64,000 nucleotides of DNA from Indolivaga capnocytophagoides DSM 22835 (lineage in GTDB: Bacteria; Bacteroidota; Bacteroidia; Bacteroidales; Dysgonomonadaceae): contig NZ_AUFL01000004.1 of the NCBI RefSeq assembly GCF_000426485.1, positions 124,001 to 188,000 of the forward strand. The letters run 5' to 3'. The notes under the pieces were generated by a model. The model was not told the origin of the DNA. It saw only the letters and a program-made list of their open reading frames with translations, and did no database searches. The translations under genes were made by a program, and so were the position numbers. Positions 21,095 through 53,182 of the stretch are shown here, one piece after another (position 1 is the stretch's first letter; each line of letters opens with the position of its first letter).

Positions 21095-21604
21095 ATGAAA
21101 ACGGATGGATTTGAACATAAATCATTTGAGATCAATGGTCGTACAGTAGAGTATAAAACCAAGATTGTTGATAAGATTGAGCAAGATGTTGTTAATCTGA
21201 GTGACAAAGACAAGGAGTTTGTGGCTTATTGTCTTGTTGATGCGGAAATATTATTGAAACAATTAGATAAAGTCAAAGATCTTTCTGAATATTCAGCAAC
21301 TGATCTGGATATTTTGATATACTATTGGCTCCATAATCGGTCTTGGTTTAAACTGGTTGAAGAAGATGAATTTATTAATGCCTTGGGGGCAGCTTTTGGT
21401 TATTTGATGAATAAGGAATGCCACACCGTATGGTCTATAATAAATGATGAGTATGGTAGAGATTTCACTTGTGTTTCCGAAGTACCCAAGTTTCAGACTT
21501 TTCCTTTCAGTTCGGTTTGGAAGGCGGTCGAAGAGGGTAGAGAGGGATCTTTGCAGGATATAATTGATCTGGTAAAGAAGCATCTAGAGGATAATGATTT
21601 TTAA
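21095..21604 (+). CDS. DUF3806-like small cytosolic protein
   Basis: A 169-residue acidic protein without signal peptide or membrane segment. The C-terminal 90 residues resemble DUF3806 (LGAAFGYLMNKECHTVWSII, then DEYGRDF and FPFSSVWKAVEEG), a domain of unknown function found in many Gram-negatives. The N-terminus starts MKTDGFEHKSFEINGRTVEY. It follows mgtE by 74 bp on the same strand and is closed by a terminator, so cotranscription with mgtE is possible. No function can be assigned. Confidence 0.8.
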   Translation: MKTDGFEHKSFEINGRTVEYKTKIVDKIEQDVVNLSDKDKEFVAYCLVDAEILLKQLDKVKDLSEYSATDLDILIYYWLHNRSWFKLVEEDEFINALGAAFGYLMNKECHTVWSIINDEYGRDFTCVSEVPKFQTFPFSSVWKAVEEGREGSLQDIIDLVKKHLEDNDF

Positions 21605-21634: not shown

Positions 21635-21663
21635 AAAAGTGATAGTTTTCTATCACTTTTTTT
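21635..21663 (+). terminator. Intrinsic terminator after DUF3806-like gene
   Basis: AAAAGTGATAG, loop TTTT, CTATCACTTTT, then further T residues (11-bp perfect stem). Confidence 0.93.
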
Positions 21664-21689
21664 CTTCCGTCTCTATTTTTAGACGGAAG
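21664..21689. promoter_or_regulatory. Inverted repeat, possible operator of the peptide gene
   Basis: CTTCCGTCT (21664-21672) and AGACGGAAG (21681-21689) are perfect 9-bp arms around 8 nt. They lie where the -33 element of the next promoter should be and have no U tract, which suggests a protein-binding site rather than a terminator. Confidence 0.5.
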
Positions 21690-21694
21690 GATCA

Positions 21695-21702
21695 TATCTT
21701 TG
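21695..21702 (+). promoter_or_regulatory. -7 element for the double-glycine peptide gene
   Basis: TATCTTTG, 66 nt upstream of the peptide start. The -33 position is taken by an inverted repeat rather than TTTG. Confidence 0.55.
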
Positions 21703-21768
21703 ATATATAAAATTGAACCGGTTGATTTTACAGAACTTAAAATAATTATTAATTAAAACTTTACTATT

Positions 21769-21957
21769 ATGAACGTATTAGATTTACAAAATCTTGGAGT
21801 AGAAGAGATGAATGAAGAGGATATAAGGGATGTGGATGGAGGAAGAAGAGGTTGGTTGCCTGGTTTAATTTATGAGGCGTATGAATTTGCTTGTGATTAT
21901 ATCGAATTTGGGAAAAAACATTCAGATATAGTTGAAGTTGGTGCTAATTGTATGTAA
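21769..21957 (+). CDS. Double-glycine-leader peptide precursor (bacteriocin- or signal-like)
   Basis: A 62-residue precursor. Residues 1-25 look like a GG leader: MNVLDLQNLGVEEMNEEDIR followed by DVDGG, with the amphipathic L-x-x-L-x-x-L/M pattern and a Gly-Gly end (24-25). Removal would leave a 37-residue peptide starting RRGWLPGLIYEAYEF, with aromatic residues and two cysteines (C42, C61). Leaders of this form are cut by the C39 peptidase domain of ABC exporters; no such exporter lies in the window, so it would act from elsewhere. A terminator follows and a CPBP membrane protein comes next, the usual type of bacteriocin immunity neighbour. The function (bacteriocin, signal peptide) is inferred. 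Confidence 0.75.
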   Translation: MNVLDLQNLGVEEMNEEDIRDVDGGRRGWLPGLIYEAYEFACDYIEFGKKHSDIVEVGANCM

Positions 21958-21964
21958 TATAATC

Positions 21965-22002
21965 AATAAGAAGTTCGCTGACCAAAAGCGAACTTCTTAT
22001 TT
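21965..22002 (+). terminator. Terminator-like hairpin inside the peptide cassette
   Basis: AATAAGAAGTTCGCT (21965-21979) pairs perfectly with AGCGAACTTCTTATT (21987-22001) across a 7-nt loop. The T-rich descending arm suggests partial termination between peptide and CPBP genes. Confidence 0.85.
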
Positions 22003-22015
22003 AAACTTGATATGA

Positions 22016-22486
22016 ATGTTAAAAGTATATAGATACTTCCTACAATTAAATCTCTCTTATGTATTTCTGATTTTATTGTTTACCTTATTAATATTTCCTA
22101 CTTTAATATGCAATATAATAACAGTTTTTACATCTTGTTCGGAAAATTGGGCAGAAATAGATTTACCATATAAAAGTTTATCACTTAATATTATAACAAT
22201 AATATTTATAGCACCTGTTGTGGAAACTTTTATATATCAATTTTTGCCATTTTCGCTATTATTTAGAGCTTTAAAAATTAGACCTATTTATGTCATTTTT
22301 TTCTCTTCTTTTCTCTTTGGAGGAATGCATTATTATAATATTATTTATGTAGTTTATGCTTTTTTATCAGGATGTATATTGATTTTTGCCTATATAATTT
22401 TTTATAAGAGGAAGTTTTATCCTTTTGTAATGGTTAGTATAATACATTTTATCATAAATTTAATAGCTTATATAAGATATATCTAA
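22016..22486 (+). CDS. CPBP-family membrane protein (degenerate CAAX-protease-like)
   Basis: A 156-residue integral membrane protein with about four or five spans. It matches the CPBP (Abi/CAAX) family by motif 2, FGGMH (F101, H105), and motif 3, HFIIN (H144, N148). Motif 1, normally EExxxR, reads ETFIYQ (E70, Q75), so the second glutamate and the arginine are missing. That weakens the case for proteolysis. CPBP proteins next to bacteriocin genes (as in plantaricin and sakacin loci) serve as immunity proteins, and this is the likely role here. It follows the double-glycine peptide by 58 bp and a hairpin, and precedes an unknown gene by 10 bp. The DNA is very AT-rich. Confidence 0.78.
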   Translation: MLKVYRYFLQLNLSYVFLILLFTLLIFPTLICNIITVFTSCSENWAEIDLPYKSLSLNIITIIFIAPVVETFIYQFLPFSLLFRALKIRPIYVIFFSSFLFGGMHYYNIIYVVYAFLSGCILIFAYIIFYKRKFYPFVMVSIIHFIINLIAYIRYI

Positions 22487-22496
22487 TAATAAATAA

Positions 22497-22847
22497 ATGA
22501 AAATAGATTCCATAATACTATTTGAAGAACAATCTTTGGAGTACAAAGGATGGCTTATCAATATTCAGAAGAAGAGTTTCATCTTGAATAATAAATTTTA
22601 TATTCAACTTTCAGTACCTGAAAATTCAGTATCAAAATTATCCGGTTTGACTCAATTTAATTCTAAAATACAGATTCAGAGAAGTATAAAATGGAAATGG
22701 ATTGATCTTTTGGGTAATAATAACAGAATGTTTGATAAATGCAGCGAAGAAATAAAATTGTATATTGATTCAGTACTAGGTGATGTGATATCTTATCTAA
22801 AGAATTATCAATCCCAAGATTTAGGTGTAAATATGGATGATAAGTAA
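22497..22847 (+). CDS. Small protein of unknown function in peptide cassette
   Basis: A 116-residue protein without signal peptide or membrane helix, basic and polar, with two Trp in IKWKWIDLLG (about 64-73) and an amphipathic C-terminal helix (SEEIKLYIDSVLGDVISYL). I do not recognise it. It lies 10 bp behind the CPBP gene on the same strand and is probably translated from the same mRNA, so it may be an accessory immunity factor or maturation partner (inference). Base composition is as AT-rich as the CPBP gene. It converges on the DUF4296 gene with a 41-bp gap. Confidence 0.7.
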   Translation: MKIDSIILFEEQSLEYKGWLINIQKKSFILNNKFYIQLSVPENSVSKLSGLTQFNSKIQIQRSIKWKWIDLLGNNNRMFDKCSEEIKLYIDSVLGDVISYLKNYQSQDLGVNMDDK

Positions 22848-22888: not shown

Positions 22889-23659
22889 TTATTTTCTTCT
22901 TTGTCCTTTTATCGAATCATTTTTTACAGTTTTCTCCAGATCTTCGGTATTCTTCAGATTTATATTATACAACAATACTTTACCATTGGTTTTCGAAAGG
23001 TCATTTATATGTATATACCCACTTATCTCCTTTATTGTATCCTGAACTTGGGGATTCACTATTTTGGGGGATATTCCATCCGTAAATTGTTGAACCTTTG
23101 TAATTGTTGTATCGGGATACTCAAATCGTACTGCCAGTTCGCCATTCATATCACCACGTATGCCTAATGTTTTTAGCGATATTTCGAACTTCGAAAAAGA
23201 TTTGCTTTTTATAGAGTCTATATCAAAATCAAGAAAAGTGTTAGAACTTGTAAGGTAAGTATAGTATGGTAACACATTGTGATTGTATTCACGTATTTTC
23301 CCAAAATTCGGAACTTCTTTAAGAAATTCATTCGATTCTCTCTTCAGTCTGGATGAAACGGAGTCTGTAATCCGCATATATTCTTCGGGATGATCGGCAT
23401 ACCATACTAATGACGAATCAAGTTGAGCTTGTGTTATTCCATGCTTTTCAAATACTCCTTCGAGTAAAGCTGTCTTTTTATCCGCTTGGTTGAAATCTTG
23501 ATAACGAGTTTGGTATATTGCATCAACTAGTTGCATATCATGCAATACATCCATCATTTTGTCTCTGGATAACTTTCCGTTATCGTTGCCGCATGCTGCG
23601 AAGCACAGGCATAATACCGGAAATGATGCATAATATATGAATCGATGATTTTTTTTCAT
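22889..23659 (-). CDS. DUF4296 lipoprotein
   Basis: A 256-residue lipoprotein with signal peptide and lipobox ending FAAC (C23). The N-terminal half matches DUF4296, a Bacteroidota family of unknown function (KMMDVLHDMQLVDAIYQTRY, then GVFEKHGITQAQLDSSLVWY). The C-terminal half is more variable. Its ATG overlaps the lspA stop by one base (TAATG), so the two are translationally coupled; lspA encodes the signal peptidase that would process this very lipoprotein. The mature protein probably faces the periplasm or sits at the outer membrane. Confidence 0.88.
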   Translation of the reverse strand: MKKNHRFIYYASFPVLCLCFAACGNDNGKLSRDKMMDVLHDMQLVDAIYQTRYQDFNQADKKTALLEGVFEKHGITQAQLDSSLVWYADHPEEYMRITDSVSSRLKRESNEFLKEVPNFGKIREYNHNVLPYYTYLTSSNTFLDFDIDSIKSKSFSKFEISLKTLGIRGDMNGELAVRFEYPDTTITKVQQFTDGISPKIVNPQVQDTIKEISGYIHINDLSKTNGKVLLYNINLKNTEDLEKTVKNDSIKGQRRK

Positions 23660-52785: not shown

Positions 52786-52825
52786 CAATCTTGTCTTTAA
52801 ATGGTATAAATAATACAATATGGGA

Positions 52826-52887
52826 ATAAAAAAGGTTGTCATCACGACAACCATCTTCATAACCTTAAATCTAATACCATGAAAAAT
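52826..52887 (-). ncRNA. Candidate small RNA 2 (promoter + ~60 nt + terminator)
   Basis: On the reverse strand TATCTTTG is followed by about 60 nt that contain GGTATTAGATTTAAGGTT bracketed by TTCAT/ATGAA, and then a GGTTGTC-N5-GACAACC hairpin with six or more U residues. No protein gene fits. The ends are estimated from the promoter and terminator. Confidence 0.55.
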
Positions 52888-52893
52888 ATGTTA

Positions 52894-52922
52894 CAAAGAT
52901 AAATTATTGAAAACACTGGAAA
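52894..52922 (-). promoter_or_regulatory. Promoter for candidate small RNA 2
   Basis: The reverse strand carries TATCTTTG (52894-52901) with TTTC at 52919-52922, 17 bp upstream, a near-match to the -33 TTTG. Confidence 0.55.
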
Positions 52923-52953
52923 ATACCATTAAATAGGTATTTCTCTAAAATAA

Positions 52954-52985
52954 CCAAAGGCTTTCAATATCTTGAAAGCCTTTGT
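52954..52985 (-). terminator. Terminator of the tRNA operon
   Basis: Perfect inverted repeat AAAGGCTTTCAA / TTGAAAGCCTTT with a 4-nt loop, directly after tRNA-Leu, followed on the reverse strand by GGTTATTTT. Confidence 0.88.
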
Positions 52986-53068
52986 ACACACGAGGGGATT
53001 TGAACCCCTACGCCCTTGCGAGCACTACCCCCTCAAAGTAGCATGTCTACCAATTCCACCACGTGTGC
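52985..53068 (-). tRNA. tRNA-Leu (GAG)
   Basis: The reverse strand folds as a class II tRNA: acceptor GCACACG pairs with CGTGTGT, D arm GGTGGAATTGGTAGACA, anticodon stem CTACT/GGTAG with loop TTGAGGG (anticodon GAG), long variable arm and T loop GGTTCAAATCC. CCA is not encoded. Confidence 0.93.
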
Positions 53069-53109
53069 AGGTGTATTTAGAAAAAAAAATGTGACCATTG
53101 CCACATTTG

Positions 53110-53182
<73 letters not shown>

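Follow-up and report, generated by a model that had tools for sequence, protein, structure and literature searches.

The window, that is the whole stretch of DNA analysed here (64,000 nucleotides, G000:C2:124001-188000, from a genome of 4.38 Mb in 38 contigs), carries a small three-gene cassette that we read as encoding a class II bacteriocin-like peptide and a self-protection module made of a CPBP-family membrane protein and a 116-residue protein, with export of the peptide in trans. We assign this reading a probability of about one half. It is supported by the double-glycine (GG) leader of the peptide, by the recurrence of the CPBP subfamily beside GG peptides and by the presence of an exporter in the genome, and also by the linkage of the CPBP and 116-residue genes in one other species and by the absence of the cassette from the corresponding gap of the nearest congener. 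Against it stand the acidic core, the lack of a match to any bacteriocin model, the lone peptide and a closest CPBP homologue, in G017, without a GG peptide. The partly circular association test, the G046 locus without CPBP and an exporter available only in trans weigh further against it.

According to this reading, the cassette would be a variably present unit whose precursor is translated from its own putative promoter, and the hairpin after the peptide gene would stop part of the transcription. A C39 exporter (PCAT) encoded elsewhere would recognise the leader and cut after the GG, and the 37-residue core would leave through the PCAT and HlyD proteins; its two cysteines may be joined by a disulphide. 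The CPBP protein, predicted to be an inner-membrane protease-like protein with intact motif residues, and the presumably soluble 116-residue protein would be made by read-through and protect the producer, the core acting as an antimicrobial.

Organisation of the cassette and of the precursor peptide

Three tandem open reading frames occupy the plus strand at 21769-21957, 22016-22486 and 22497-22847. The features of the region are:

21095-21604, DUF3806 gene, upstream neighbour of the cassette
21635..21660, plus strand, terminator-like hairpin 3' of the upstream DUF3806 gene, left boundary of the cassette
21695..21702, plus strand, possible Bacteroidota-type -7 promoter box TATCTTTG, read from the sequence
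21769..21843, plus strand, GG leader of 25 residues, from a profile of other genomes' leaders
21844..21957, plus strand, 37-residue core with two cysteines, plus stop codon, from the list of open reading frames
21965..22001, plus strand, hairpin with a 15-bp stem in the gap between the peptide and CPBP genes, from folding compared to shuffles
22016..22486, plus strand, CPBP (Rce1-like) membrane protein of 156 residues, PF02517
22497..22847, plus strand, 116-residue protein with no predicted membrane segment and one homologue found
22889-23659, DUF4296 gene, convergent, downstream neighbour of the cassette

The GC content, measured in 600-base windows, is 22-27% within the cassette compared to 33-41% outside. 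The initial annotation had described three small AT-rich genes, namely a 62-residue GG precursor with a 37-residue, two-cysteine core, a CPBP-family membrane protein and a 116-residue protein without family; reading frames, lengths, base composition, the position of the GG (residues 24-25) and the family models, with PF02517 over its cut-off for the second protein and no Pfam or NCBIfam model over its cut-off for the third, all agree with this description. Bacteroidota promoters follow the consensus TAnnTTTG, and the putative box at 21695-21702 agrees with it. The hairpin that follows the peptide gene, which the initial annotation does not mention, is far more stable than expected from its composition (-20.7 kcal/mol compared to a shuffled mean of -5.5, z -6.4, none of 200 shuffles being equally stable), and is reported by a consensus scan on the minus strand only. 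It is likely to be a terminator or attenuator that keeps expression of the CPBP and 116-residue genes lower. Elsewhere in the window, an FopS sRNA (RF04319, 64.3 bits compared to a gathering score of 56) lies at 52824-53182 on the minus strand and adjoins tRNA-Leu and tRNA-Gly.

The leader of the precursor, MNVLDLQNLGVEEMNEEDIRDVDGG, was compared with a profile built from five leaders that all belong to genomes other than this one and to loci without CPBP. Among 738 small open reading frames (566 from the window and 172 from the exporter region L014), this profile placed the window peptide first with an E-value of 8.9e-13 while the runner-up reached only 2.5, indicating that the leader is more than a chance resemblance. 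A search of the 101 genomes of the family at E<=0.1 gave leader matches in eight of them, own genome included. G093, G011, G035 and G046 have leaders of this type, whereas the matches in G091, G016 and G021 do not resemble GG peptides. When a nine-leader profile was run on the own genome, the window peptide was accompanied by a single other match (E 2.5), and neither the window nor, at E<1, the genome gave a second leader match that could represent a partner peptide.

The core carries its cysteines at positions 17 and 36 and a net charge of -2, and its helical moment is not significant, the best value being reached by 37% of shuffles. Typical class II bacteriocins are cationic whereas this core is acidic and not amphipathic. 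The window peptide exceeds the cut-off of none of the bacteriocin models, and it has no match at E<=1 to either TIGR03949 or TIGR04149. By eye its core resembles the second peptides of other loci, but when it was tested against six cores chosen by eye the similarity was not significant (p 0.10 to 0.93). A pattern scan of genome_contigs (84,980 species) matched 174 stretches, none of which encodes a relative. Conservation in relatives, which the initial annotation had proposed as a check, was thus found for the leader, through the profile in other genomes, and not for the core in the pattern scan or among the six cores.

The CPBP subfamily and its association with GG peptides

The second protein of the cassette matches PF02517 (E 1.3e-8, 35.4 bits compared to a cut-off of 22.4) and has four hydrophobic segments by hydropathy. 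CPBP proteins are recognised by a conserved E and by the motifs FxxxH and HxxxN, which correspond here to E70, to F101 and H105, and to H144 and N148. All eight aligned relatives share P67, E70, T71, Q75, F101, H105, G119, H144 and N148, and this invariance of the motif residues makes it plausible that the window protein is an active protease. A search for relatives gave matches in 7 of 101 genomes of the family, at least 35 of 393 of the order and at least 14 of 395 of the phylum, own genome included in each count, the order and phylum figures being lower bounds obtained with up to nine candidates scored per genome.

The association of this subfamily with GG peptides was assessed with a leader profile free of leaders from CPBP loci, clusters scoring over 60 bits being counted as the subfamily. 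A GG leader was detected at E<1e-3 in 6 of 12 subfamily clusters compared to 1 of 31 distant CPBP clusters (Fisher p 0.0009). This test is partly circular, since GG-linked members had gone into the CPBP profiles. The window's own cluster and L111, which is the same place as L076, were left out of these counts, as were those 8 of the 38 order-search matches for which there was no locus (the weakest matches and second matches per genome); L113 was merged into L101, and L102 and L116 into L114. The sole positive among the distant clusters is G759 (L106). The negative subfamily clusters are those of G017, which holds the nearest CPBP homologue and has no GG peptide nearby, G221, G697, G512, G540 and G842:C6; of these, G540 becomes positive when the nine-leader profile is used, and in G842:C6 a GG peptide can be recognised by eye. 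The phylum search by itself gave 3 of 7 subfamily clusters compared to 1 of 7 distant clusters with a GG leader, which is not significant. In related genomes, GG peptides are repeatedly found next to CPBP proteins of this subfamily.

Reading of the neighbourhoods, about 1.5 kb on each side, with HlyD proteins and linked exporters recognised by reading, revealed the following loci. A GG peptide, a CPBP and an HlyD protein are found in G265, two GG peptides and a CPBP in G336, and two GG peptides, a CPBP, an HlyD protein and a 716-residue C39 exporter in a row in G035 (L017). In G052 and G314, a protein with a helix-turn-helix (HTH) domain and a GG-leader-like segment accompanies one and two GG peptides, respectively, and a CPBP. 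Four genomes of the same class but outside the order (G540, G661, G770 and G842) have GG peptides, mostly paired, with CPBP. One locus of G770:C12 (L114, L116 and L102) contains in a row, by eye, a GG pair and a CPBP, then another GG pair, two further CPBPs and an HlyD protein, which looks like one CPBP for every peptide pair. Of the 10 other CPBP clusters that bear GG peptides, 7 have at least two of them, recognised by profile or by eye. Among nine related peptides, four reach the cut-off of TIGR03949 (class IIb bacteriocin), two of them in G336, one in G265 and one in G046, and two others, in G035 and G011, reach that of TIGR01847 (bacteriocin signal). The G046 locus that holds the TIGR03949 peptide has an exporter and an HlyD protein by reading, and no CPBP was seen there.

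The 116-residue protein and the origin of the cassette

For the third protein, neither PHROGs nor PADLOC gave a match at E<=1, phage records gave none and solved structures a single one (E 0.78), and no membrane segment was predicted by hydropathy. Weak but repeated matches to C39-ABC transporters were dropped, as other proteins that are non-transporters by eye score alike (16 to 18 bits) and the matched segment looks transmembrane. The searches gave matches in 16 of the 101 family genomes (E<=0.1) and in 12 of the 393 order genomes (E<=0.01), own genome included in both; apart from one homologue, their other weak matches were likewise set aside as chance. The one homologue found, 44% identical, is encoded by G033, a metagenome-assembled genome of the same genus (Dysgonomonas sp. 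UBA10850). Directly 5' of it (L065) lies a 23-codon remnant of a CPBP 3' end, of which 13 of 23 residues are identical and whose ungapped score is 82 compared to 24 at the next best place on the same contig. Since remnant and homologue adjoin each other and the flanking genes are unlike those of the window, the CPBP and 116-residue genes form a unit at two places. The homologue itself is intact. In this one case, the 116-residue gene was kept while the CPBP gene was lost, as would fit an immunity gene retained after loss of the toxin.

The same locus, with the remains of the pair and no peptide gene in view, also bears on a different organisation in which the CPBP and 116-residue genes form an independent immunity or defence pair directed against the peptides of other strains, the GG peptide being a separate gene. 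Such an arrangement would agree with the hairpin that parts the peptide gene from the other two; we hold it to be very unlikely, as against it other genomes repeatedly have peptide and CPBP genes side by side on the same strand. The PADLOC defence models gave no match for the pair, a result that is neutral for a new pair.

The structure of the 116-residue protein was modelled from a two-sequence alignment with low confidence (mean pLDDT 53.8). A search of the PDB with this model returned 147 matches at E<=10 and none at E<=0.001, the best being 0.59; the many PUR/PC4 nucleic-acid-binding folds among them give a weak lead as to the fold. This trend, together with the acidic and non-amphipathic core, would suit a signalling cassette in which the exported peptide is a pheromone, the CPBP protein acts on either this peptide or a membrane regulator as a processing enzyme, and the 116-residue protein is a cytoplasmic responder. 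Also in its favour, in G052, G093 and G314 the GG peptides are accompanied by HTH proteins with GG-leader-like tails, hinting at regulation through the GG pathway. In these proteins an HTH domain of about 70 residues is followed by the GG-leader-like segment and a short tail (L042:799-1131, L004:1113-1469 and L073:95-436). A profile of the family, GG part included, matches in at least 52 of 393 Bacteroidales genomes; of 30 such loci (L117-L146), 29 have an open reading frame, and the GG falls at residues 71-105 in 15 of these 29. The HTH-GG proteins may be regulators controlled by C39 cleavage. By contrast, the profile has no match in the own genome, the cassette contains no regulator or sensor kinase and the confidence of the model is low, and we regard a signalling cassette as improbable.

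The place of the cassette was compared among congeners. In G031, the closest congener by DUF4296, an mgtE-like gene, DUF3806, DUF4296 and lspA follow in the same order (by reading), and the gap measures 64 bp compared to 1284 bp in the window, the cassette being absent. A different gene adjoins DUF4296 at that place in G030, G032 and G034, and the contig of G033 ends short of the gap. Because of the low GC content of the cassette, its insertion seems likelier than its loss elsewhere. No target-site duplication was seen by eye at the junction in the single alignment with G031, and the cassette DNA has no match in plasmids.

Export in trans and comparison with known systems

The own genome encodes C39 domains at two places, both on contig 16, and none lies in the window, in keeping with the initial claim that no C39 exporter is nearby. 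One of them belongs to a 731-residue C39-ABC protein with a DCG motif (C39 E 5e-33, plus ABC domains), whose residues 2-726 align as a single segment to 4ry2, a bacteriocin transporter of solved structure (E 5.6e-98). The C39-ABC protein is followed by a 435-residue HlyD protein and is preceded by a 141-residue C39-like protein lacking the catalytic cysteine. The order Nudix-like gene, C39-like gene and exporter is common to contig 16, G031 and G034. A C39-like protein without catalytic cysteine thus adjoins a full C39-ABC exporter at L014:12359-16709 as well as at L147 and L148 of two congeners. A C39 match exceeds the cut-off in all six genomes of the genus. The check proposed at the outset, a search of the genome for any C39 exporter, was therefore positive, and the presence of this full-length exporter makes export in trans possible. 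The initial proposal of such export is supported to that extent. The locus of the exporter contains no such peptide gene: the leader profile gave nothing better than E 2.5 in L014, in the G031 and G034 loci or in three other exporter loci examined. The window peptide could use the resident exporter.

These results also bear on whether the cassette is a decayed remnant, derived from a former two-peptide bacteriocin locus, perhaps with an exporter, and encoding a peptide that is now neither exported nor active. Most of the related loci examined have two peptides and that of G035 a linked exporter, while the window has one peptide and no exporter; moreover, the related locus L065 retains its CPBP as a remnant, and no conserved core was found in the pattern scan or among the six cores. 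Decay is nonetheless doubtful, given that all three reading frames are open, that the leader and the CPBP motif residues are conserved, and that an exporter with the expected domains is present in the genome.

Returning to the bacteriocin-like reading, lactic acid bacteria have GG bacteriocins that are accompanied by CPBP/Abi immunity proteins. The cassette resembles these systems in that a GG peptide adjoins a CPBP protein with intact motifs, and differs from them by its two-membraned Bacteroidota host, its second, unrelated 116-residue gene and its putative exporter in trans. With the class IIb lactobin A/cerein 7B family (TIGR03949), whose cut-off is reached by the G336 and G265 peptides beside the same CPBP subfamily, the window peptide shares the GG leader; unlike that family, it is acidic, has no partner and does not match the model. 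Bacteroidetocins, as described in the accessible part of PMC6671954, have a leader of 15-16 residues and a 42-residue core with four cysteines, and their neighbours are a thiol oxidoreductase and a five-TM protein, no immunity protein having been found (PMC6671954). Compared to that partial description, the window peptide has a 25-residue leader, a 37-residue core with two cysteines and a CPBP neighbour.

No description of CPBP beside GG peptides in Bacteroidota was found in the literature searched, which left subscription journals mostly outside. CPBP is absent from the accessible parts of PMC10352776 and PMC6671954; in the corresponding parts of the other sources, it is mentioned once as a distant relative of PrsW (PMC3482391) and for a Treponema miniprotein (PMC9200625), and CAAX is not mentioned in that of PMC13289728. 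The initial annotation had proposed an undescribed system. This is too strong, because the cassette is one of a larger group of GG-peptide/CPBP loci, and four of the nine related peptides scanned reach TIGR03949; what holds is that the literature searched gave no description of a CPBP-GG pairing in Bacteroidota. A broader proposal, to which we give little credence, is that a distinct CPBP subfamily marks class-wide undescribed GG-peptide systems in two-membrane bacteria, cut down here to one acidic peptide that would borrow the resident chromosomal C39 exporter and have a new soluble 116-residue partner, with signalling or kin recognition rather than killing as its role. The cassette names a candidate self-protection gene for GG-leader peptides in Bacteroidota, and if the CPBP subfamily protects, peptide loci could be found through the CPBP gene instead of the fast-changing peptide.

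The TIGR04149 radical SAM-modified GG RiPPs have a GG leader, as does the window peptide, which itself does not match their model. The same genome does encode a GG peptide of this second kind, at G000:C5:68850-68984 (L098:1501-1695), which scores 32.3 bits compared to a cut-off of 25 and has a core rich in Ser, Cys and Asn.
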